DNA of 64,000 nucleotides, from assembly GCA_031459765.1 (NCBI GenBank), contig JAVKHY010000013.1, positions 1 through 64,000 of the forward strand. Reading direction: 5' to 3'. Of the stretch, positions 21,945 to 39,404 are shown piece after piece. The notes under the pieces are model-generated. The model worked only from the letters and a program-made list of their open reading frames with translations, had not been told where the DNA came from and did no database searches. How positions within the stretch are numbered: the first letter of the stretch is position 1; each line of letters begins with the position of its first letter. Made by a program: the position numbers and the translations under genes. The DNA comes from Armatimonadota bacterium. GTDB lineage: Bacteria; Sysuimicrobiota; Sysuimicrobiia; Sysuimicrobiales; Kaftiobacteriaceae.

Positions 21945-23858
21945 ATGCGGACGCTTGCCGTTCTGGTGCTCATCGCGGCCACCCTGCCGACGCGGACACC
22001 GCCGGCTTGGGCCCAGCCTCCGAATGACGTGGCGGGGCACTGGGCGGCGGAACGCATCGCCCTCCTGCTGCGACGCGGAATCGCACCCCCGGGAGCCGAC
22101 CAGACCTTTCGTCCCGATGACCCGATCAGCCGGGCGGAGTTCCTGCGGTGGGTGATCGCCGCCGCGGGGCTGCCGGTGCGTCCCGGCGCCCTCACCTCCT
22201 TCGTAGACGTCCCACCCTATCATCCTGCGTCGCCCTTCGTGGAGGCGGCGGTGGCCCGGGGCATCATCCCGCGGACGCCGATGTTTCTCCCCGACGCCCC
22301 GGTGACGCGCCTGGAGGCCGCGATGATTGCCGTCCGCGCCATCGGCTACGCGGCGGAAGCTGCGGCGCTGGCTCTGCAGCCTCCGCCCTTTGAGGATGCG
22401 GCGACGCTGGCGGAGGCGGAGCGCGGCGCCGTCAACGCGGCGCTGCGCATGGACCCGCCGCTGCTGGCCGAACCGGCCGCCGCGACCTTCCGGCCCCAGG
22501 ACCCGATGACGCGCGCCGAGGCGGCGTCGCTCGCGGCCGGCGTCCTGCTCGGCGTGGAGAACGGCGTGCGGCTGCGCGCAACGATCCCGGTCGCCCCGGG
22601 CCTGGAGTTGCTGGTGGAAAAGCGGGGTGTGCTGCGCGCTCCGGTCCTGTGGCGGGTACAGGTCGGCGCCTTCACCAGCGAGAGCAACGCCCGCCGTCTG
22701 GCCCTGCGCCTGCAGGAGCGCGGCCTGCCGGTGGACGTGGAGTTCCAGGACGGGTTCTACAAGGTCCGCGCGGGCAACTTCGCCAGCATCGTGGATGCCC
22801 AGGCCCTGAAGGAACGGCTGGGCCGCGAGGGATACGCCACCTGGGTGGTGCAGACGCTGCCGTCCTTCGAAGGACTGGCCGGTCCTTCGCGTGAAGCGGC
22901 CCTGTTCCTCGATCCCACCTCCGGGGCCCGGCTCGTCCCCGCGGTGGGCGACGGCGGCCGGATGCGCCGGCAGCGGGTGAGCGAGATCGCCAGACGCACC
23001 GGAGCGCTGGCCGCGGCCAACGGCGGCTACTTCTCCGCCGCCGGAGACCCCCTGGGCTGCCTGATGATCGACGGCGAGTGGGTGAGCGAACCCGACGTCC
23101 GGCGCTCCTGTGCCGGGATCACGGCGGAGGGGACGGTGCTCTTCGACCGGCTCCATGCGGAGTTCACGGCGCTGGCCGGGGAGGCCTCGGCCCGGATCGA
23201 CGGGCTCAACCGCGAACGGCGTGCCGACGAGCTGATCCTGTACCGGCCGATCTACGATGCGAGCACGCGGACCAACGCCTTCGGCGCCGAGGCGGTGGTG
23301 AGCAACGGCGTCGTCGTCTCCGTCGCGGACCAGCGGGGAAACTCTCCGATCCCGCGGGACGGATTCGTGCTCTCCGGACACGGGCGGGCGCGGCAGTGGA
23401 TCCTGCGCGCCCTGGCTCCGGGCCTGCCGGTCGTCGTGCAGACCGTGCTGGTTCCCCGCGGGGCGGATTCGCGCTGGCAGCAGATCGTCCACGCCGTCGG
23501 CGGCGGGCCGCGGCTGCTCAGCGGCGGCGAGTGGACACCGCCGGAGGATTTCCCCGCGGCGCTCACCGACCGTCGTCACCCGCGCACGGCGATCGGAGTG
23601 CTGGCCGACGGCCGCATCCTGCTCCTGGTCGTCGACGGCCGCCAGCCGACCCACAGCCTGGGCATGACGCTGCCGGAGCTGGCCATCGCCCTGCGGCGGC
23701 TGGGGGCGGTGGAGGCGATGAACCTGGACGGCGGCGGATCGTCGACCCTGGTCGTCGGCCACCGGGTCGTCAACCAACCCTCCGACGAAACCGGAGAACG
23801 GCCGGTGGCCGTGGCGCTGCTGGTCCTGGGCCCTCAGGCTCCCGCACCGGGCCCCTGA
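21945..23858 (+). CDS. SLH-SPOR-phosphodiester glycosidase (NAGPA) exoprotein
   Basis: A 637-residue secreted protein. Signal peptide ends at AWA (about residue 22). Three S-layer homology repeats follow to about residue 200 (DVAGHWAAERIALL, FVDVPPYHPASPFVEAAV, FRPQDPMTRAEAASLA). A SPOR domain spans about 222-295 (WRVQVGAFTSESNARRLALRL), which in other proteins binds glycan strands lacking stem peptides. The C-terminal half is a phosphodiester glycosidase domain (AANGGYFSAAGDPLG; AMNLDGGGSSTLVV). It therefore combines cell-wall anchoring, peptidoglycan binding and sugar-phosphodiester hydrolysis. ATG 21945 gives a clean signal peptide; GGAAAGG precedes it. The end overlaps the convergent MocA-like gene by 25 bases. 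Confidence 0.88.
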   Translation: MRTLAVLVLIAATLPTRTPPAWAQPPNDVAGHWAAERIALLLRRGIAPPGADQTFRPDDPISRAEFLRWVIAAAGLPVRPGALTSFVDVPPYHPASPFVEAAVARGIIPRTPMFLPDAPVTRLEAAMIAVRAIGYAAEAAALALQPPPFEDAATLAEAERGAVNAALRMDPPLLAEPAAATFRPQDPMTRAEAASLAAGVLLGVENGVRLRATIPVAPGLELLVEKRGVLRAPVLWRVQVGAFTSESNARRLALRLQERGLPVDVEFQDGFYKVRAGNFASIVDAQALKERLGREGYATWVVQTLPSFEGLAGPSREAALFLDPTSGARLVPAVGDGGRMRRQRVSEIARRTGALAAANGGYFSAAGDPLGCLMIDGEWVSEPDVRRSCAGITAEGTVLFDRLHAEFTALAGEASARIDGLNRERRADELILYRPIYDASTRTNAFGAEAVVSNGVVVSVADQRGNSPIPRDGFVLSGHGRARQWILRALAPGLPVVVQTVLVPRGADSRWQQIVHAVGGGPRLLSGGEWTPPEDFPAALTDRRHPRTAIGVLADGRILLLVVDGRQPTHSLGMTLPELAIALRRLGAVEAMNLDGGGSSTLVVGHRVVNQPSDETGERPVAVALLVLGPQAPAPGP

Positions 23859-24433
23859 AGTCTCTCGAGGTCCGCCGGCAGATCGATGTCCAGGGCGGCC
23901 TCGGGCGGGATCTCGACGGTGGCCACCTCGCCCCGATGGGTCTCGATCACCTGGCGCGCCCCCTGGTCCCCCTCCAGCAAGAGCAGCTCGATGAACAGGC
24001 TGCGGTCGAACAGCGTCGGCGCGCCCAGCACGGCGCCGTAGCGGCAGGTCACGATCCGCTTGCCCGTGGCCCGGTAGGCGGCGATCAGGCGGCCCACGAT
24101 GCCCGCGTCGATGCGCGGCTGGTCGGCAAGGAGGATCACCGCGGCCTCGGCGGAGGCCGGCAGCGCGCGGACGCCGGCGCGGATGGAACTGCCCATTCCC
24201 TCGCTGTGGTCGGGGTTCAGGACGGCGCGCGCCGGGACGCTCCCCAGCAGCGGCAGGTAGCGGTCGCGGTCGGCGCCCAGCACGACGAGGATGCTCGAGC
24301 ACCCGGCACCCGCCGCCGCCTCCACGGCGCGGAGGAGCAGCGGTCGGCCCTCATAGGACAGGAGGAGTTTGGGCCGTCCCATCCGCCGGCTGCCGCCGGC
24401 GGCAAGGATGATGGCGGCAACATCTCGCGGCAC
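23834..24433 (-). CDS. MocA/MobA-like molybdopterin nucleotidyltransferase
   Basis: A 199-residue nucleotidyltransferase of the MobA/MocA type. N-terminal nucleotide-binding signature AAIILAAGGSRRMGRPK, a GMGSSIRAGVRAL segment typical of MocA, the metal-binding LLADQPRID, and a C-terminal DIDLPADLERL. MocA adds CMP to molybdopterin to make the dinucleotide cofactor (MCD) used by xanthine-dehydrogenase-family enzymes and CO dehydrogenase, which fits its place as last gene of the cox operon, 40 bases after coxF. Product 199 residues, normal for family. Confidence 0.9.
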   Translation of the reverse strand: MPRDVAAIILAAGGSRRMGRPKLLLSYEGRPLLLRAVEAAAGAGCSSILVVLGADRDRYLPLLGSVPARAVLNPDHSEGMGSSIRAGVRALPASAEAAVILLADQPRIDAGIVGRLIAAYRATGKRIVTCRYGAVLGAPTLFDRSLFIELLLLEGDQGARQVIETHRGEVATVEIPPEAALDIDLPADLERLQGPGAGA

Positions 24434-24473: not shown

Positions 24474-25598
24474 TCAGGAGGCCCCGGCCGCCCGCTGCGT
24501 TTCGTGGATAGGCCCTCGCCGCTCTCTCAGAAATCCGCCCCGCCGCCCCGCCTCCACCGCCTGGATCTCCGCCAGCAGCGCCAGGGCGATCGCCTCCGGA
24601 CCCTCGCCCCCGATGTCGAGACCCACAGGACCGAACAGGCGCGCGCGGTCCTCCGCGGTGAGGATCACGCCCTGCCCACGGAGCTCCTCGAGGATCTTCT
24701 CCGTGCGCTGGCGCGGTCCCAGCATCCCGATGTAGCGCACCGGCGTGGCCAGGAACCCGCGCAGGAGATCCCGGTCGTGAAGGTAGTTGTGGGTCATCAC
24801 GACGACGTAGGTCCGATCGTCGATCGCCACCCGTCCCGCAGCCTCCTCGGCCGAAGCCCGCACGAACTGCCGGGCCCCGGGAAACCGCTCCGGGGTGAGG
24901 AATCGTTCCCGCGGGTCCACGACGACGACCCGCCAGCCCATCGCCGAGGCGAACTGCACCACGGGGATCGCGTCGTGTCCCGCCCCGCAGACGATCAGGC
25001 GGATCGGCGGGCGGATCACCTCGACGAAGGCCCTTCGGTCTCCCCCGGCCGTCGGCAGGACCACCAGCCGGGAGGCGCCTTCGGCCAGCGCGGCCTGCGC
25101 GGCCCGGACGGCGCGGGTCTCCGCCTCCGGATCATCCAGTCTGCCTTCGCCCGCGCCGTCGGGACGGACGGCGATCCACCGCCCGGCCGGCGGCCCGTCC
25201 AGGAGTTTCACCAGGGCGATCGTCCGCTCCCCTTGCAGGGCGGCGCGGAGGAGGGGCCACTGCGCCGAGGCCGGATCCACCGGCTCGACGAAGAGCTCCA
25301 CCGCGCCGTTGCAGCCCAGCCCCAACCCCCACACCGCGTCGTCGTCGGCGGTGAGGTCGTAGGTCACCAGCCGCGGGGTGCCGCTGGCCATCACCTCGTC
25401 GGCCACGACCATGAGGTCGCTCTCCAGACACCCGCCGCTGATGTTCCCCACCATCTCCTGGGAGGCGCTCATGAGCAGCCGCGCCCCCGCGCGCCGGTAG
25501 GTCGACCCGCGGACGCCCACGATCGTGGCCAGCGCCAGGCGCTCGCCGCGCCCGGCAAAGGTGTCGATGGCCGTGAGGATGTCCAGCAGCTCTCTCAT
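24474..25598 (-). CDS. coxF: XdhC/CoxF-family Mo-cofactor maturation protein
   Basis: A 374-residue XdhC/CoxI-type protein. N-terminal domain with IVGVRGSTYRRAGARLLM and the Cys-containing NISGGCLESDL, followed by LGLGCNGAVELFVEP. C-terminal Rossmann-like XdhC_C domain with VCGAGHDAIPVVQFASAMGW, DPRERF and YIGMLGPRQRTEKIL. XdhC binds the Mo-cofactor, helps its sulfuration and inserts it in the hydroxylase. The order D-E-F of the Oligotropha cox cluster is kept here, which supports the symbol. Start is six bases after the coxE stop. Confidence 0.9.
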   Translation of the reverse strand: MRELLDILTAIDTFAGRGERLALATIVGVRGSTYRRAGARLLMSASQEMVGNISGGCLESDLMVVADEVMASGTPRLVTYDLTADDDAVWGLGLGCNGAVELFVEPVDPASAQWPLLRAALQGERTIALVKLLDGPPAGRWIAVRPDGAGEGRLDDPEAETRAVRAAQAALAEGASRLVVLPTAGGDRRAFVEVIRPPIRLIVCGAGHDAIPVVQFASAMGWRVVVVDPRERFLTPERFPGARQFVRASAEEAAGRVAIDDRTYVVVMTHNYLHDRDLLRGFLATPVRYIGMLGPRQRTEKILEELRGQGVILTAEDRARLFGPVGLDIGGEGPEAIALALLAEIQAVEAGRRGGFLRERRGPIHETQRAAGAS

Positions 25599-25604
25599 TA
25601 GGCG

Positions 25605-26747
25605 CTACCTCCGCCGCGCCGCAAGGTGCTTCTCGAGCCGGCGCAGGCTCTCCAGGTTGTGCGCCGAGGCAAAGACATCGACATAGGGCAACGCCGCGCG
25701 CATCCCCTGGCAGATCGGCTCGTAGCCGGGGCTGCCGAGCAGCGGATTGAGCCAGATCACCCGCCCCGCCCGGCGGTGCAGCTCGGCCATGGCCTGTTCC
25801 AGGATCTCGATGTCGCCGGTGTCCCAGCCGTCGCTGATCACCAGCACCACCGTGTGGGGCGTCAGGAGCCGCGCACCGTAGCGGTCCAGGAACGTCCGCA
25901 GGCTGGCGCCGATCTTCGTCCCTCCGGACCAGTCCGGGACCTGCCTGGCCACCTCGTCCAGCGCGGTACGCAGGTCGTCCTCCGACATTGCATCGGTGAT
26001 CCGGGTCAGCGACGTGCTGAACACCATCGTCTCGACCCGCCCCAGGGCGTGCTGCAAAGCGTAGATGAACTGGATCAGGAAGCGGCTGTACAGGTCCATG
26101 GAGCCGCTGACGTCGGCCAGCAGGACCACCTGCACGCGCTGAATTCTCCGCCGCCGGTAGGCGAGATCCACGATCTCGCCGCCGCGGCGCAGACTGTGGC
26201 GAATCGTGCGACGCAGATCCACCCGCGCGCTGTGTCGGGCGGCACGGGTGCGGCGGGACAGCCGCGTGGCCACCCGCCGGGCGATGGCCACGACCAGCCG
26301 GGTCACCTCGTGCAGCTCGTCGGCGGTGAAGGTGCTGAAGTCTTTCTGCACCAGGACCTCGACGGGACTGTAGGCCGGCAGCGGCTCGTCGCCCTCCGCC
26401 GGCGGCGCGTCGTCCAGCCACTCCGCCAGTGCCGGAGGCGGCTGCACGCCGTCGCCGGCGGCCTCGGCGTCCGGCGCGGACTGGGCACCGGAGGCGCCGT
26501 CGGGCGGTGGGGGATTCCAGTACTCTTCGAACACCTCGTCGAAGACGGCCAGGTCGTCACGTCGCGAGGTCAGCACGGTGCGCAGCGCGAGATAGCACTC
26601 CCGGCGGTCGCCCACGTCCACCGCACCGAGGGCGCGCAGGGCGTCGGCCGCCTCCCGCGGGCCGACCGGCACCCCGCGCGCGCGGAGGCGCCGGCAGAAG
26701 GCCACGACGTGGGCGGTGAGGTTGCCGAAGCGGCGCGGCGCGTTCAT
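25605..26747 (-). CDS. coxE: CoxE-type von Willebrand factor A protein
   Basis: A 380-residue CoxE-like protein. The VWA domain in the C-terminal half has an intact MIDAS motif (DVSGSMD near residue 211), then GTKIG and ISDGWDTGD that complete the metal site. The N-terminal half is helical with an acidic, Pro-rich linker. CoxE partners the AAA ATPase CoxD in building the Cu-S-Mo centre of CO dehydrogenase; the coupled ATGA overlap with coxD supports this. ATG 26747 is preferred to an upstream frame extension that runs into coxD. Confidence 0.92.
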   Translation of the reverse strand: MNAPRRFGNLTAHVVAFCRRLRARGVPVGPREAADALRALGAVDVGDRRECYLALRTVLTSRRDDLAVFDEVFEEYWNPPPPDGASGAQSAPDAEAAGDGVQPPPALAEWLDDAPPAEGDEPLPAYSPVEVLVQKDFSTFTADELHEVTRLVVAIARRVATRLSRRTRAARHSARVDLRRTIRHSLRRGGEIVDLAYRRRRIQRVQVVLLADVSGSMDLYSRFLIQFIYALQHALGRVETMVFSTSLTRITDAMSEDDLRTALDEVARQVPDWSGGTKIGASLRTFLDRYGARLLTPHTVVLVISDGWDTGDIEILEQAMAELHRRAGRVIWLNPLLGSPGYEPICQGMRAALPYVDVFASAHNLESLRRLEKHLAARRR

Positions 26748-27700
26748 CGGCGGGGCAGCCCGACACCCTGGCCGGCTACCCGATCGATCATCTCCTGCGT
26801 CCACGGTCGCGGCTCCCGGTCCAGGGCGGCGACGCTGGCCAGCAGGTGGTCCAGCCACTGGGTGCGTACCCGCTCGGCGTCGTCGCGCTGTTTAAAGAGG
26901 ACCCCCAGCGTCTCGGCCACCGCGGCCTCGTCCAGGTGGTCGTGGTGCAGCGCCATGAGGGCCAGACTCCAGTCCAGCGTCTCGGCGATCCCGGGCGTCT
27001 TCTCCAGCTTCGTCTTGCGCACAAACTGCATGAAGGCGGCGATCTGCTCCGCCAGGCGGTCGTTGATGGCCGGGACCTTGCGCCGGACGATGGCCAGTTC
27101 CTTGTCGAAGGCCGGGTAGTCGATCCAGAGGTACAGGCAGCGCCGTCGCAGCGCGTCGCCCAGCTCCCGGGTGCGGTTGCTGGTCAGCACCACGTAGGGG
27201 ATGTGCTTCGCTCGGATCGTGCCGATCTCGGGGATCGTCACCTGCCAGTCGGAGAGCACCTCCAGGAGAAAGGCCTCCCACTCCTCATCGGCGCGATCGA
27301 CCTCGTCGATGAGCAGGACCGGGGCCCGCTCATGGGTGATCGCGGCCAGCAGCGGCCGCTTCAGGAGGAAGGGTTCGCTGAAGATCTCCCGCTCGCGGAT
27401 CTCGACGGGCAGATCGCTGTGCTCCTGCAGCCGGATGTGCAGCAGCTGGCGCTGGTAGTTCCATTCGTACAGCGAGGTGGTGGCGTCCAGGCCCTCGTAG
27501 CACTGGAGGCGGATGAGGTCCGTGTCCAGGGCCCGGGCCATGACCTTGGCCACTTCCGTCTTGCCAACGCCGGCGGCGCCTTCGATGAGCAGAGGTTTGC
27601 GCAGCTGGATGGCCAGGTAGACGGAGGTGGCCAGACTCTGGTCGGCCACATACCCCTGGTCCTCGAGCATGGACTGGATGCGGACGATCTCGGGGTGCAT
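26744..27700 (-). CDS. coxD: CoxD-type MoxR AAA+ ATPase
   Basis: A 318-residue MoxR-family ATPase. Walker A GAAGVGKTE at 41-49, Walker B VLLIDEVDRAD near residue 127, sensor-1 region VVLTSNRTRELGDALRRR. Characteristic CoxD segment LQCYEGLDATTSLYEWNYQRQ follows the P-loop. CoxD acts as a chaperone in stepwise sulfuration and copper insertion at the active site of CoxL. Overlaps coxE by four bases. Sixty bases separate it from the upstream coxG. Confidence 0.93.
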   Translation of the reverse strand: MHPEIVRIQSMLEDQGYVADQSLATSVYLAIQLRKPLLIEGAAGVGKTEVAKVMARALDTDLIRLQCYEGLDATTSLYEWNYQRQLLHIRLQEHSDLPVEIREREIFSEPFLLKRPLLAAITHERAPVLLIDEVDRADEEWEAFLLEVLSDWQVTIPEIGTIRAKHIPYVVLTSNRTRELGDALRRRCLYLWIDYPAFDKELAIVRRKVPAINDRLAEQIAAFMQFVRKTKLEKTPGIAETLDWSLALMALHHDHLDEAAVAETLGVLFKQRDDAERVRTQWLDHLLASVAALDREPRPWTQEMIDRVAGQGVGLPRR

Positions 27701-27760: not shown

Positions 27761-28207
27761 TCACGCCTCCAGCTGCGCCTTCACGCACTCGAACAGTTCC
27801 GCGGTCTTCCGTTCCACCGTACTGTCCAGCAGTCGGGCGCCCACGGTGGCCAGGGGACCGCTGACCACCACGTCCGCCGTCCAGCGGAGCTCCGTCACGC
27901 CGCCCTCGCCGTCGGCCAGATCCACGGTGCTCGTGACGTCGACCCCGCTACCCAAACCGCTCCCCCGGCCGGCGATCACGGCGTGCGCCGGTTCCTGGAG
28001 GTCCCGCATGGTGACCTCAAAGGTGAAGTTCCCCCGGATGAAGGCCACGCCGACGCGGACCACCGCCCGGAAGCGGCCCTCCCCCAGGACGTCCAGGCTC
28101 TGGACATCGGGCAGGCAGCGGCTGACCCTGTGGGGATCGACCAGGAACCCCCAGACCTGACGGCGCCCGGCGCGGATGGCCAGCATTCCCTCGTAGTGCA
28201 GCGGCAT
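27761..28207 (-). CDS. coxG: CoxG-like SRPBCC protein 1
   Basis: A 148-residue START/SRPBCC-fold protein of the CO dehydrogenase subunit G family. Pattern: FLVDPHRVSRCLPDVQSLDVLG, then RVGVAFIRGNFTFEV, then LRWTADVVVSGPLATVGARLLD. CoxG has been proposed to attach CO dehydrogenase to the membrane, and related proteins bind hydrophobic quinones; no membrane segment is present here. ATG 28207 follows the XdhC-YHS stop by one base. A second CoxG lies at 32955-33392. Confidence 0.88.
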   Translation of the reverse strand: MPLHYEGMLAIRAGRRQVWGFLVDPHRVSRCLPDVQSLDVLGEGRFRAVVRVGVAFIRGNFTFEVTMRDLQEPAHAVIAGRGSGLGSGVDVTSTVDLADGEGGVTELRWTADVVVSGPLATVGARLLDSTVERKTAELFECVKAQLEA

Positions 28208-28208
28208 G

Positions 28209-29123
28209 CTAGGCGCCCGCGGCGGCGTAGGCCGCCGGGTCGCGCTCAAACGTCTGGCGGCAATGCGCGCTGCAGAAGTAGTAGCGCATCCCGGCGAACT
28301 CGACCGTGTGCTGCGCGGTCCCGGGGGTCACGGCCATCCCGCAGATGGGATCGATGGCCGCGGCCGGCGCGGGGGCGGGGGCGACCGGAAGGGTCCGGCC
28401 GCGCCGGATCTGCACGAGCTCGGCGAGAATGCTGAGGGCGATCTCTTCCGGGGTCACCGCCCCGATGTCCAATCCGGCCGGCACCTTGATCCGCCGGATC
28501 TGCGCCTCCGTCATCCCCCGGCCGCGCAGGTAGGCGGCTACCGCCTCGGCCCTCCGCCGGCTGGCCACCAGCGCCACGTAGCCGGCGGGCGAGCCCAGGA
28601 CGCGCAGGAGGGCTTCCTCGTCGTAGGTGCCCATGGTGGCCACGACGACGGCGGTGTCCGGGGTGATCCGCTCGGCCAGTTCCTCCAGCGAGTGGGGCAG
28701 GCCGGCCATCCAGACGTCGAAGGCGAGCAGCCGGCCCATCTCGGCCAGCGCGGCCACCAGAGGGGCGTCGCCGATCAGGAGGAGCACGGGGCGGGGGAGC
28801 ACCGGTTCGATATAGATCTCCAGGCTGCCGCCGCTGTGGCAGGTCATGACATGGTGGATCACCCCCGGCCGTTCGGCAGGCGGTGTCGGGCTGAGGCAGA
28901 TCAGCCGCGGGATCCCCTCCCGCAGCGTCTGGAGCGCTTCGGTCAGCACCACCGGATGGGCGCAGCTGCCCCCGACCCATCCCTCCAGTGTGCCGTCCGG
29001 CAGGATCAGGGCCTTCATCCCCGCGCGGGCCGAAGACGGTCGCTCCGCCCGGACGACCGTGGCCACAGCGAAGGGCAGCCCCTTCGCCCGCAACGCCGCC
29101 GCCCGCTCGAGAAGGTCGCCCAT
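28209..29123 (-). CDS. XdhC-family protein fused to a C-terminal YHS metal-binding domain
   Basis: A 304-residue protein. The XdhC N-terminal domain (about 1-90, WVGGSCAHPVVLTEAL) and XdhC_C Rossmann domain (about 110-240, VVVATMGTYDEEALL, IKVPAGLDIGAVTPEEIA) are followed by an Ala/Pro linker and a YHS domain: DPICGMAV and YYFCSAHCRQTFERDP. YHS domains bind metals and occur in copper and heavy-metal proteins. It lies directly after coxL (8 bases) and before coxG. CoxI is the corresponding XdhC-like protein in other cox clusters. I infer that it handles the Mo-cofactor and perhaps the copper of the CuSMo centre. ATG 29123 is chosen; upstream extension runs into coxL. Confidence 0.87.
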   Translation of the reverse strand: MGDLLERAAALRAKGLPFAVATVVRAERPSSARAGMKALILPDGTLEGWVGGSCAHPVVLTEALQTLREGIPRLICLSPTPPAERPGVIHHVMTCHSGGSLEIYIEPVLPRPVLLLIGDAPLVAALAEMGRLLAFDVWMAGLPHSLEELAERITPDTAVVVATMGTYDEEALLRVLGSPAGYVALVASRRRAEAVAAYLRGRGMTEAQIRRIKVPAGLDIGAVTPEEIALSILAELVQIRRGRTLPVAPAPAPAAAIDPICGMAVTPGTAQHTVEFAGMRYYFCSAHCRQTFERDPAAYAAAGA

Positions 29124-29131
29124 CAGCGGGC

Positions 29132-31480
<2,349 letters not shown>

Positions 31481-31484
31481 GTCT

Positions 31485-32860
<1,376 letters not shown>

Positions 32861-32954: not shown

Positions 32955-33388
32955 CTAGCGGGGAAGTTCCCTCTCCACGGCCTTGAAGAACTCGCCGGCG
33001 ATCTGCCGGGCCACGCCGCCGATCAGGCGGTGGCCGACGCTGGCGATGAGGCCGGTGATCTGCGCCTCGCCGGTGTAGTGCACGACGGTCCGGCCGTCCT
33101 GTTCCACCAGGCGGAGCTCCCCGGTGGCCCGGATCGTCCCGGGCCGCCCGCCCCCTTCTACCCGCAGGGTCATCCGCTCCGGCGGAGCCTTCTCGGTGAT
33201 GCTGACCGTCCCGTCGTACACGCCCCTGACCGGTCCCACCGCCAACTCGATCCGTGCCGCGTAATGGTCGGGGCCCTGGGGGGTGAGCGTCTTCACGCCA
33301 GGGGTGGCGCGGGCCAGGACGGCCGGGTCGTTGAGCAGCGCCCAGATGCGCTCGCGGGGAGCAGGGAAGGTATAGGTGCCTTCGACTT

Positions 33389-33392
<4 letters not shown>
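32955..33392 (-). CDS. coxG: CoxG-like SRPBCC protein 2
   Basis: A 145-residue CoxG-family protein, the better match of the two in the window: GTYTFPAPRERIWALLNDPAVLARATPGVK at the N-terminus shows the typical pattern, ending with GLIASVGHRLIGGVARQIAGEFF. SRPBCC fold with a hydrophobic cavity; possibly involved in tethering CO dehydrogenase. ATG 33392 overlaps the acetoacetyl-CoA synthetase stop (ATGA), tying the two genes in one transcript. Confidence 0.9.
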
Positions 33393-35494: not shown

Positions 35495-36931
35495 ATGGCT
35501 GTGCAACAGGTCGATCGGAAGCTGTATATCGGAGGACGGTGGACGGGCGGGGGCGAGGTGATCCCCGTCCGCAACAAGTACAGCGGCGAGATCATCGGCA
35601 CGATCCCGTCCGCGACACGCGATGATGTGGATGCCGCCGTCGCCGCCGCGCTCCGGGCGGCCCCCCTCATGGCGGAGATGCCCGCCCACCGCCGGGCGGC
35701 GATCCTCCAGGCCGCGGCGGCGGGGATCCGGGCCCGACGCGAGGAGTTCGCCCGCACCATTGCCGCCGAAGCCGGCAAGGCGCTCAAGTACGCCCGCATC
35801 GAGGTGGACCGGGGCATCAGCACCTTCACCTTCGCCGCGGAAGAGGCCAAACGACTGCACGGCGAGACGGTGCCCCTGGATGCCGCGGCCGCCGGAGAGG
35901 GCTACTTCGGCTTCTTCGTCCGCCGACCGGTCGGGGTGGTGGCGGCGATCACCCCCTTCAACTTCCCGCTCAACCTGGTGGCGCACAAAGTGGCGCCCGC
36001 GCTGGCGGCGGGGAACAGCGTCGTGCTGAAACCGGCCTCCTGGACGCCGCTCACCGCCGTCCTCCTGGTCGAGACCCTCATCGAGGCCGGGTTGCCCCCG
36101 GGGGCGATCAACCTTGTCGCCGGGCCGGGGGGCACCGTGGGCGAGTGGCTGGTCACCGATCCCCGCGTGGCCAAGGTGACCTTTACGGGCAGCGCGGACG
36201 TCGGCCGGCAGATCGTCTCCCGCGCCGGGATCAAGAAGATCACCCTTGAACTGGGCAACACCTCGCCGGTGATCGTCGCCCCCGATGCCGACCTGGAGTT
36301 CGTGGCCCGGCGCTGCGCCGTCGGCGCCTACTACAACTCCGGGCAGGTCTGCCTCTCCGTGCAGCGCATCCTGAGCGACCGGACCGTCTACGATCCGTTC
36401 CTGGACCGGTTCACCCGGGCCGCGGAGGCGATGGTGGTCGGCGACCCCCTGGATGAACGGGTGGACGTCGGTCCGATGATCGACGAGGGCGAGGCGGTGC
36501 GCATCGAAGGCTGGGTCGCCGAGGCGGTGAACGGCGGCGCCCGGGTGGCCACCGGCGGACGGCGGGAAGGACCCGTCTACTGGCCCACGGTCCTCACGGA
36601 TGTCCGGCCTGAGATGACGGTCGTGGCCCGGGAAGCCTTTGCGCCCGTCGCCTCCGTGATGCCCTACGACGACTTCGAGGAGGCGCTGCATCTGGCCGAC
36701 GCCACGGAATACGGGCTGCAGGCCGCCGTCTTCACGCGCAGCCTCGACCGCCTCTTTCAGGCCATGCGCCGGCTCAACTTCGGCGGCATCATCGTCAACG
36801 ACGCCCCCACTTTCCGTGTGGACCACATGCCCTACGGCGGCAACCGGCAGAGCGGGATCGGCCGCGAGGGGGTGCGCTACGCGATGGAGGAGATGACCAA
36901 CATCCAGATCATCGCCATCCGCCAGGGGTAG
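35495..36931 (+). CDS. Aldehyde dehydrogenase family protein
   Basis: A 478-residue NAD(P)-dependent aldehyde dehydrogenase. Cofactor region TPFNFPLNLVAHKVAPALAA with the Lys of LKPASWTPL, FTGSADVG, catalytic Glu252 (LELGNTSP) and catalytic Cys286 (NSGQVCLS). The sequence style (TPFNFPLN, NSGQVC) resembles lactaldehyde, non-phosphorylating glyceraldehyde-3-phosphate or phosphonoacetaldehyde dehydrogenases; the substrate is open. It is divergent from the acetoacetyl-CoA synthetase, sharing a 123-base region, and precedes the second Mo-hydroxylase. Confidence 0.92.
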   Translation: MAVQQVDRKLYIGGRWTGGGEVIPVRNKYSGEIIGTIPSATRDDVDAAVAAALRAAPLMAEMPAHRRAAILQAAAAGIRARREEFARTIAAEAGKALKYARIEVDRGISTFTFAAEEAKRLHGETVPLDAAAAGEGYFGFFVRRPVGVVAAITPFNFPLNLVAHKVAPALAAGNSVVLKPASWTPLTAVLLVETLIEAGLPPGAINLVAGPGGTVGEWLVTDPRVAKVTFTGSADVGRQIVSRAGIKKITLELGNTSPVIVAPDADLEFVARRCAVGAYYNSGQVCLSVQRILSDRTVYDPFLDRFTRAAEAMVVGDPLDERVDVGPMIDEGEAVRIEGWVAEAVNGGARVATGGRREGPVYWPTVLTDVRPEMTVVAREAFAPVASVMPYDDFEEALHLADATEYGLQAAVFTRSLDRLFQAMRRLNFGGIIVNDAPTFRVDHMPYGGNRQSGIGREGVRYAMEEMTNIQIIAIRQG

Positions 36932-37061: not shown

Positions 37062-39404
37062 ATGGGGACGCGCTACTTCGGCGAACGCGTCAAACGCAGC
37101 GAAGACCCGCGGTTGCTGACCGGCCGCGGGCTCTACGTCGACGACATCCGACCGCCCGGCGTGGTTCACGCCGCCTTCCTCCGCAGCCCTCACGCCCACG
37201 CCCGTATCCTCCGCATCGATGTGTCCCGGGCGCGGGCCGCGCCCGGGGTGGCGGCGGTTTACACCCGGGCCGATCTGCCCCCGGCCCTGGCCGCGCCGCT
37301 GCCGAAACTCATCCCCCACCCGGCGCTGCTTCACCACAAGACGCAGTACGCCCTGGCTCCCGAGAAGGTCCGTTACGCCGGCGAGCCGGTCGCGCTGGTC
37401 ATCGCCGAGAATCGCTATGTGGCGGAAGATGCCGTGGAACTCATCGAGGTGGAATACGATCCGCTGCCCGCCGTGGTGGATCTGGAGCAGGCGGCGCGAC
37501 CGAACGCGCCGCTGGTCCATGAGGACATCGGCACCAACGTGTGCGCGCACTATACCCAGCGCGTGGGCAACGTAGAGGAGGCCTTCGCCCGCGCCGCCCA
37601 CGTCTTCCGGGAGCGGTTCGTCTTCGACCGCGGGGCCTCGGCGCCCCTGGAGTGCCGCGGGATCGTGGCGCAGTGGGAGGCGAAGCTGCGCCAGCTGACG
37701 GTGTGGGACAGCACCCAGGCGCCGATCCGCATTCGCAACTACCTCAGCCAGCTCCTGGGGCTGCCCCAGCAGGACGTCCGCGTCATCGCCCCCGACATCG
37801 GCGGCGGCTTCGGCCCCAAGATCATGATGTGCTATCCCGAAGAGGTCCTCATCCCCTGGGCGGCGATGCAGTTGAACCGGCCGGTGAAGTGGATCGAGGA
37901 CCGACGCGAGCACTTCGTCGCCACCAACCAGGAGCGGCTGCAGATCCACGACGCGGCCATCGCCGTCGACGCCGACGGCCGCATCCTGGGGGTGCGGACG
38001 GAGTTCCTCTATGATTCGGGAGCGTACATCCCCTATGGGATCATCGTCCCCATCGTGGCCAGCACCACCCTGCCCGGCCCCTACAAGATCCCCAACTACC
38101 ACTGCGAGTTCAAAGCCGTCTTTACCAACAAGACCATCGTCAGCCCCTACCGCGGCGCGGGCCGCCCCCACGGTGTCTTCGTCATGGAGCGCCTGCTGGA
38201 CCGCGTGGCGAGGGAACTCGGGCTGGACCGCGCCATCGTGCGGGAGCGCAACTTCATCCAGCCCGACGAGTTCCCCTACGAGGTCGGACTGATCTACCAG
38301 GACAACGCACCGGTGGTCTACGACAGCGGGGACTACCCGGCGACACTGCGCAAGGCCATGGAGATGATCGACTACGCCGGGTGGCCCGAGCGGCGGAAGC
38401 AGTTCCGTCGCGAGGGCAGGTATGTCGGGCTGGGTATCGCCTGCTACGTCGAGGGCTCCGGGATTGGGCCGTACGAGGGATGCCGCGTCACCGTGGAGCC
38501 GTCGGGCAAGGTCTTCGCTGCCACCAGCGTCGGCACCCAGGGACAGGGCCACTACACCTCGTTCGCGCAGATCGTGGCCGACGCGCTCACCGTGCCGGTG
38601 GAGGACGTCACGGTGGTGACCGGCGACAGCGGGGCGTTTTCCTGGGGCACGGGCACCTTCGCCAGCCGCGCCGCGGTGGTCGCGGGCAACGCCGTCTACC
38701 TGGCGGCCCAGGCCGTTCGCGAGAAGGCCCTCCAGGTGGCCGCGACGAGGCTGGAGGCCCGGGTCGAGGACCTGGAGATGGCCGACGGCAAAGTCTTCGT
38801 CCGCGGCACCCCCGGCCGGGCGATGACGCTGGCGGAGATCGCTGTGGCCGCCAACCCGCTGCGGGGCACCATCCCCAGGGAGTGGGATCAGCCCGGCCTG
38901 GAGGCCAGCCGCTACTTCGCCCCCTCCGGCGGGACGTGGCCCAACGGCGCTCACGCCTGCCTGGTGGAGGTCGATCCGCAGACCGGAATGCTCTCGGTCC
39001 TGAAGTACGTCGTGGTGCACGACTGCGGGCGGGTGATCAATCCCCTCATCCTGGAGGGGCAGATCCGGGGCGGCGTGGCGCAGGGGCTGGGCGGCGCCTT
39101 CTACGAACGGCTCGTCTACGACGAGAGCGGACAGCTTCTGACGCAGACCTTCATGGACTACCTGCTGCCGACCGCCGCCGAAGTCCCCGTCGTGGAGATC
39201 GGCCATCTGGAGACGCCGTCTCCGCGCAACCCCCTGGGGGTCAAAGGGGCCGGCGAGGCCGGCGTGATCCCGGTCGGCGCCCTCATCGCGCAGGCGGTGG
39301 AGGACGCGCTCCAGGAGTTCGGGGTGCGCATCACCGAGATGCCCCTCTCCCCGAGCCGGCTCCTCGAGATCATCACGGCGGCGTTGGCGGTGGGCGCGCG
39401 ATGA
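37062..39404 (+). CDS. Xanthine-dehydrogenase-family molybdenum subunit (PYRGAGR type)
   Basis: A 780-residue Mo-cofactor subunit. The active-site loop is SPYRGAGRPHG, the non-form-I type, with no copper-binding Cys, so this is not a classical CO dehydrogenase. Mo-binding GGGFGPK, VGTQGQGHYTSFAQ and catalytic Glu in GVKGAGEAG are present. It hydroxylates an unidentified aldehyde, purine or N-heterocycle. The following genes encode FAD and FeS subunits (order L-M-S, unlike M-S-L in the cox operon) and an AllH-like protein, each overlapping by four bases. Own promoter likely (TATAAT at 37039). Confidence 0.93.
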   Translation: MGTRYFGERVKRSEDPRLLTGRGLYVDDIRPPGVVHAAFLRSPHAHARILRIDVSRARAAPGVAAVYTRADLPPALAAPLPKLIPHPALLHHKTQYALAPEKVRYAGEPVALVIAENRYVAEDAVELIEVEYDPLPAVVDLEQAARPNAPLVHEDIGTNVCAHYTQRVGNVEEAFARAAHVFRERFVFDRGASAPLECRGIVAQWEAKLRQLTVWDSTQAPIRIRNYLSQLLGLPQQDVRVIAPDIGGGFGPKIMMCYPEEVLIPWAAMQLNRPVKWIEDRREHFVATNQERLQIHDAAIAVDADGRILGVRTEFLYDSGAYIPYGIIVPIVASTTLPGPYKIPNYHCEFKAVFTNKTIVSPYRGAGRPHGVFVMERLLDRVARELGLDRAIVRERNFIQPDEFPYEVGLIYQDNAPVVYDSGDYPATLRKAMEMIDYAGWPERRKQFRREGRYVGLGIACYVEGSGIGPYEGCRVTVEPSGKVFAATSVGTQGQGHYTSFAQIVADALTVPVEDVTVVTGDSGAFSWGTGTFASRAAVVAGNAVYLAAQAVREKALQVAATRLEARVEDLEMADGKVFVRGTPGRAMTLAEIAVAANPLRGTIPREWDQPGLEASRYFAPSGGTWPNGAHACLVEVDPQTGMLSVLKYVVVHDCGRVINPLILEGQIRGGVAQGLGGAFYERLVYDESGQLLTQTFMDYLLPTAAEVPVVEIGHLETPSPRNPLGVKGAGEAGVIPVGALIAQAVEDALQEFGVRITEMPLSPSRLLEIITAALAVGAR

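Follow-up and report, generated by a model that had tools for sequence, protein, structure and literature searches.

An XdhC–YHS fusion in a form I CO dehydrogenase operon: CoxF with a putative copper-carrying domain

The fusion gene and its operon

The DNA analysed here (the window) is a stretch of 64,000 nucleotides from contig JAVKHY010000013.1 of an Armatimonadota bacterium. Its minus strand carries a 304-aa open reading frame in which translation and Pfam searches place an XdhC_CoxI domain, an XdhC_C domain and a C-terminal YHS domain, at exactly the coordinates that an earlier note on this DNA had given with the strand unstated (Table 1). Both the XdhC and the YHS assignments of that note hold above the Pfam cut-offs, with 58 bits for XdhC_CoxI (cut-off 24), 90 bits for XdhC_C (cut-off 30) and 55.1 bits for YHS (PF04945; cut-off 30.3, E 7.5e-15), and its two motifs, DPICGMAV and YYFCSAHC, are both present in the translation. 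An AlphaFold2 model built with 64 homologues (mean pLDDT 93.8, pTM 0.81) predicts that both domains are folded, with a less certain linker, and its top matches in the PDB are of the XdhC type (2WE7/2WE8 and 3ON5). The fusion is a genuine gene and no assembly artefact, since independent genomes have it in the same position.

The gene does indeed lie directly after coxL, as had been noted, with coxL upstream and 8 nt between the two, and it forms part of a tight minus-strand operon that runs from a coxG-like gene through coxM, coxS, coxL, the fusion, coxG, coxD and coxE to a second XdhC gene and a MobA-like gene. The large subunit scores 1262 bits with TIGR02416 (cut-off 991), and its AYRCSFR motif fits the AYxCSFR pattern of form I. 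The top NCBIfam matches of coxM are FAD-subunit models of related hydroxylases, every one of them below cut-off, and the MobA-like transferase reaches 152 bits with TIGR03310, under that model's cut-off of 186. The second XdhC belongs with the CoxI-type XdhCs; it is a candidate for ordinary Moco-handling, and a better candidate for Mo insertion than CoxF.

Table 1. Coordinates of the fusion, its parts and the neighbouring cox genes in the window
Feature	Position	Strand	Remarks
coxF-YHS (fusion)	28209..29123	-	XdhC_CoxI aa 12-74; XdhC_C Rossmann 114-236; linker ~243-255; YHS 257-301
YHS domain	28221..28355	-	putative metal ligands D258, C261, C284, C288, with Met263 of CGM
Cys54 codon (GGSC)	28962..28964	-	invariant in CoxF-type XdhC
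Cys95 codon (TCHSGG)	28839..28841	-	invariant in CoxF-type XdhC
CoxG-family (SRPBCC) gene	32955..33392	-	Pfam COXG; upstream of coxM
coxM, FAD subunit	31982..32860	-	NCBIfam
coxS, [2Fe-2S] small subunit	31485..31982	-	Pfam Fer2_2, Fer2
coxL, form I CO dehydrogenase large subunit	29132..31480	-	TIGR02416; AYRCSFR
coxG	27761..28207	-	Pfam COXG; start read from sequence, 1 nt past the fusion stop
coxD-like MoxR AAA+ ATPase	26744..27700	-	Pfam AAA_5, AAA_3
coxE, VWA_CoxE protein	25605..26858	-	Pfam VWA_CoxE, 219 bits
Second XdhC, CoxI/aldehyde oxidoreductase type	24474..25598	-	Pfam, NCBIfam, CoxI-type group; no YHS
MobA-like NTP transferase	23834..24433	-	Pfam NTP_transf_3; probable Mo cofactor cytidylyltransferase

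Two further observations concern the same DNA and genome. A second CO-dehydrogenase-like large subunit is encoded on the plus strand at 37062-39404 (NCBIfam CODH_aero_grp5, 1056 bits, cut-off 950), adjoining an aldehyde dehydrogenase gene at 35495-36931; it is not form I, with a below-cut-off 620 bits for TIGR02416 and PYRGAGR in the place of AYxCSFR. The genome also encodes two more YHS proteins, in frames of 224 and 185 aa that lie about 2 kb apart and show no further Pfam domain (L001 and L003; YHS at G000:C3:123933-124076 and 126029-126151).

CoxF orthology and the company of form I coxL

The XdhC part of the fusion is 39% identical to CoxF encoded on pHCG3 of Afipia (Oligotropha) carboxidovorans (157 bits), against only 55 bits to the CoxI of the same plasmid. 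A broad tree of XdhC domains unites the fusions with the CoxF proteins of Alphaproteobacteria in a single clade (SH-aLRT 98) that excludes CoxI-type and other XdhCs; a second, more careful tree includes the window's fusion. Judged by sequence, then, the fusion is CoxF in a two-domain form, because its XdhC part is orthologous to the CoxF of A. carboxidovorans, and the YHS is an extra domain that the latter is missing. A CoxF-like XdhC group without YHS is sister to CoxF in the tree (L122, L131, L132 and L052:4539, from Pseudomonadota and Verrucomicrobiota), and in L122 and L052 a copy from this group lies near a fusion in the same operon.

The company that the fusion keeps was established by profile searches of whole genomes, which made no use of gene neighbourhood and covered 150 genomes of Actinomycetota, 43 of the window's own phylum, 100 of Halobacteriota and 150 of Pseudomonadota. 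The Actinomycetota yielded 27 full fusions and one more cut by a contig end. All 24 of their genomes with form I coxL over the cut-off have the fusion (one of them truncated by a contig end), and the remaining four of the 28 fusion genomes have a coxL fragment adjoining the fusion at a contig end (naive hypergeometric p 5e-24, with phylogeny ignored). The fusion occurs in none of the 19 Actinomycetota genomes whose coxL-like hydroxylases, at the search threshold, all score below cut-off. The picture in the window's own phylum is much the same, with 11 fusions, ten of them in genomes with coxL over the cut-off and one in a genome with a coxL fragment, and the fusion present in 10/10 coxL genomes (p 6e-9 by the same naive test, phylogeny again ignored). 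Both fusions found in Halobacteriota adjoin coxL, and all nine coxL genomes of Pseudomonadota have a CoxF-type XdhC, with a YHS in only one of them (Saccharospirillum).

The lower-scoring XdhC paralogues of the sampled genomes have no YHS, and these include the ones beside coxE without form I coxL. In G110, G004 and the third copy of G061 the XdhC matches pass position 282 only through stop codons, and a confirmed non-CoxF XdhC with YHS was found in none of the sampled genomes. In the sampled genomes the fusion thus tracks form I coxL almost perfectly, by the test that the earlier note had proposed, of the AYxCSFR form against other hydroxylases, and it does not occur mainly beside copper-free hydroxylases, since no confirmed non-CoxF XdhC there carries YHS.

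A wider scan of the collection, run on a set of closer homologues because the first alignment was too diverse, returned 80 loci in 14 phyla, two of them archaeal. By profile 79 of these are fusions, and the eightieth (L092) is seemingly without YHS, yet its YHS is masked by N. The fetched stretch contains coxL at 71 of the 79 fusion loci, and at 63 the fusion lies less than 600 nt downstream of it. Seven of the other eight (L046, L047, L062, L069, L081, L085 and L103) have form I coxL in the genome outside the fetched stretch; the eighth, L073, comes from a genome without coxL over the cut-off, and its fusion lies some 200 nt away from the end of its contig. The neighbours are less constant than the fusion, with coxD in 32 and coxE in 33 of 38 full-length loci, and among the sampled genomes MoxR/VWA genes and CoxI-type XdhCs occur also without form I CO dehydrogenase. 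In these samples, then, the CoxF type, with a YHS in most phyla, is an accessory protein restricted to form I CO dehydrogenase, and XdhC–YHS is the form that CoxF commonly takes outside Alphaproteobacteria. The architecture is widespread and is therefore no oddity of this genome.

Among individual loci, four from Mycobacterium (L087, L094, L105 and L120) have the XdhC–YHS gene directly downstream of a coxL with AYACSFR. A Chloroflexi locus (L046:9995-11164, Centralia_MAG_208) encodes an XdhC that carries two YHS domains in tandem, and has no cox genes within 10 kb; form I coxL sits on another contig of that genome.

Copper, molybdenum and the YHS domain

Copper is the mark that sets form I CO dehydrogenase apart from its hydroxylase relatives. 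Because of this, and because the CoxF type is restricted to form I, we take the fusion to be the coxF of a form I (Mo-Cu) operon in which the XdhC part would dock on the Mo-loaded apo-enzyme and the YHS domain would carry copper and pass it on, a reading to which we give a probability of roughly two in three.

Much of what bears on this comes from Pelzmann et al. 2014 (PMC4240915), who studied the CO dehydrogenase purified from O. carboxidovorans with an insertion in coxF (F::km). The mutant enzyme held 1.85 Mo, 1.40 sulfane sulfur and 0.043 Cu (all in mol/mol) and the enzyme of the H2-grown wild type 1.73, 1.53 and 1.47 respectively, and CoxF is therefore needed in O. carboxidovorans for the insertion of copper and not for that of Mo (PMC4240915). 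This role is a genetic rather than a biochemical one, since the mutant data implicate CoxE too: translation of coxE and coxF is mutually dependent, and CoxF goes untranslated in E::km (PMC4240915).

These metal contents weigh directly on the suggestion of the earlier note that one protein delivers the Mo cofactor through its XdhC part and copper through its YHS. The copper half of that idea is supported, by the association with form I coxL, by orthology to a CoxF whose mutant enzyme is without copper and by an intact ligand set of the copper-responsive type. The coupling to Mo delivery is weakened, because Mo is stoichiometric in the coxF-mutant enzyme and its sulfane sulfur near normal (PMC4240915). 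It is true that the XdhC of R. capsulatus can bind Mo-MPT and then insert it in apo-XDH (PMC2997495), and that the XdhC fold is intact in the fusion, but with full Mo in the enzyme made without CoxF, and with both another XdhC and a MobA-like gene in the operon of the fusion, we consider dual delivery very improbable.

We might also ask whether CoxF mainly sulfurates or protects Mo-SH, with the loss of copper in the mutant a secondary effect. XdhC is known to stabilise sulfurated Moco, and the sulfane sulfur of the F::km enzyme is slightly low and partly in the wrong form (PMC4240915), but that sulfur is still near stoichiometric in an enzyme from which copper is nearly absent, and the other XdhCs, which serve sulfurated hydroxylases free of copper, have no YHS, all of which makes this explanation decidedly unlikely. 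The Cu site proposed for O. carboxidovorans CoxF is the motif MCPSHGTM, in a paper that leaves YHS unmentioned (PMC4240915).

The ligand set of the fused YHS reads D-x2-C-x22-C-x3-C. In the collection scan D258, C261, M263, C284 and C288, together with C54 and C95 of the XdhC part, are identical in 80/80 proteins, where the conservation of D258, C261, M263 and C54 is partly by selection through the scan patterns (AxDP[IV]CGMxV and GWVGGSCA) and that of C284, C288 and C95 is unselected. A set of fusions gathered by profile, without those patterns, has all seven residues in 42 of 46 rows (the window's included). The exceptions are L038, whose cysteines of the set are lost, two copies from Burkholderiales plasmids in which D258 is replaced by N, and L190, a contig fragment without the XdhC part. 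The first of these, on plasmid p380k of Deinococcus sp. AJ005 (L038:7995-9053), has lost most of its YHS ligands (SPVDGEE...YFTCANC) beside an intact form I coxL, and offers a natural test of the need for metal binding by the YHS.

What might such a domain bind? The literature searched held no account of an XdhC–YHS protein that binds metal. The archaeal open reading frame L219, whose YHS matches the profile, encodes a P-type ATPase that translocates copper (TIGR01511, over cut-off). In the adenylyl cyclase of M. phlei, with ligands D178-C181-C204-C208, a Cu2+-specific switch-on occurs only with the YHS in place (PMC4626032). The YHS of the fusion might likewise be a copper sensor or gate that switches CoxF on, with copper travelling via the XdhC cysteines or another chaperone. 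The single characterised fused YHS does switch its enzyme in response to copper (PMC4626032), and a CoxF without the domain still functions (PMC4240915), but association with a product enzyme that itself contains copper suits a donor at least equally, and we think a sensor unlikely.

YHS domains can also be free of metal, as in a toluene-4-hydroxylase crystal, or bind Cd, as in L24e (PMC4626032), and the domain could instead be a structural or docking module, with Zn or with no metal, that helps CoxF to bind CO dehydrogenase, CoxE or CoxD while copper comes from elsewhere. Such a role would fit both the YHS-less CoxF beside coxD and coxE in Alphaproteobacteria and the decayed YHS of the Deinococcus plasmid, but D-C-C-C is strictly invariant though the rest of the domain varies, and the fusion is restricted to a copper enzyme; we hold this to be quite unlikely.

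The YHS is not universally essential, since alphaproteobacterial CoxF proteins, including the sole experimentally studied one, do without it. In the broader tree these lie inside a proteobacterial group that also holds fused ones (SH-aLRT 97), which suggests that the YHS was lost in the alphaproteobacterial lineage of O. carboxidovorans. This is a lean and not a result, because a single clade of all fusions is not rejected (AU test, p 0.36).

We can sketch how a copper-donating CoxF might work. To judge by what is known of XdhCs and by the coxF mutant, the XdhC module would dock on an apo-CO dehydrogenase that is folded and has its sulfurated Mo cofactor in place. The tethered YHS, given the conservation of its ligands and the way in which the M. 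phlei domain responds to copper, could hold one copper through Cys261, Cys284 and Cys288 with Asp258, and Cu(I) might then pass, perhaps via Cys95 (with Cys54), to the sulfur of Mo-SH and the cysteine of AYRCSFR, so that the Cu-S-Mo site is complete. For the part that carries the copper, the YHS tail is thus far the strongest candidate. That the widespread CoxF is a probably ancestral two-domain Cu metallochaperone with the YHS as its Cu(I) carrier, and that the carrier went unrecognised on account of an O. carboxidovorans lineage without the domain, is a broader proposition on which we are evenly divided.

Significance and comparison with known systems

Form I CO dehydrogenase removes CO from the atmosphere, and the published account of how its unique Cu-S-Mo centre obtains copper relies on a motif and a phytase activity, both of them suspected, in a CoxF that has no YHS. 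In the openly accessible papers searched none was found that joins XdhC with YHS, and none that links YHS to form I CO dehydrogenase. As an orthologue of CoxF, the protein itself is of a known type. If the YHS is the copper carrier, the copper route can be tested on a small soluble domain together with four point mutants, in species from Thermomicrobium to mycobacteria. XdhC–YHS also furnishes a marker for genuine copper-type CO dehydrogenase operons outside Alphaproteobacteria.

The closest comparison is with CoxF of O. carboxidovorans OM5 (pHCG3), which shares the orthologous XdhC module, the GG-x-C and C-x-S-x-G cysteines and a cox operon with form I coxL, coxD, coxE and coxG. It differs in being 280 aa long, without YHS, and in a gene order of M-S-L-D-E-F-G against M-S-L-F-G-D-E in the window. 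The cysteine of its suspected Cu motif, MCPSHGTM, aligns with Cys95 of the fusion and is invariant, whereas the histidine is unconserved even in close relatives (H/Q/R/K). The nearest solved structure to the XdhC part is that of the M. smegmatis Rv0376c homologue (2WE7/2WE8), a match that spans the XdhC part alone and leaves the YHS unmatched. The group of R. capsulatus XdhC, CoxI and PaoD shares the XdhC_CoxI and XdhC_C domains and the conserved family cysteine, but its sampled relatives lack YHS and are found with copper-free hydroxylases, and R. capsulatus XdhC binds and inserts sulfurated Moco.

For the YHS part, copper-translocating P-type ATPases have the same type of domain as the fusion, but are membrane transporters. 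The class III adenylyl cyclase of Mycobacterium phlei shares a C-terminal YHS on a short linker with the same D/C/C/C spacing (3/23/4); its YHS is fused to a cyclase and acts as a sensor switch rather than a chaperone, and it is there that a copper response has been reported.
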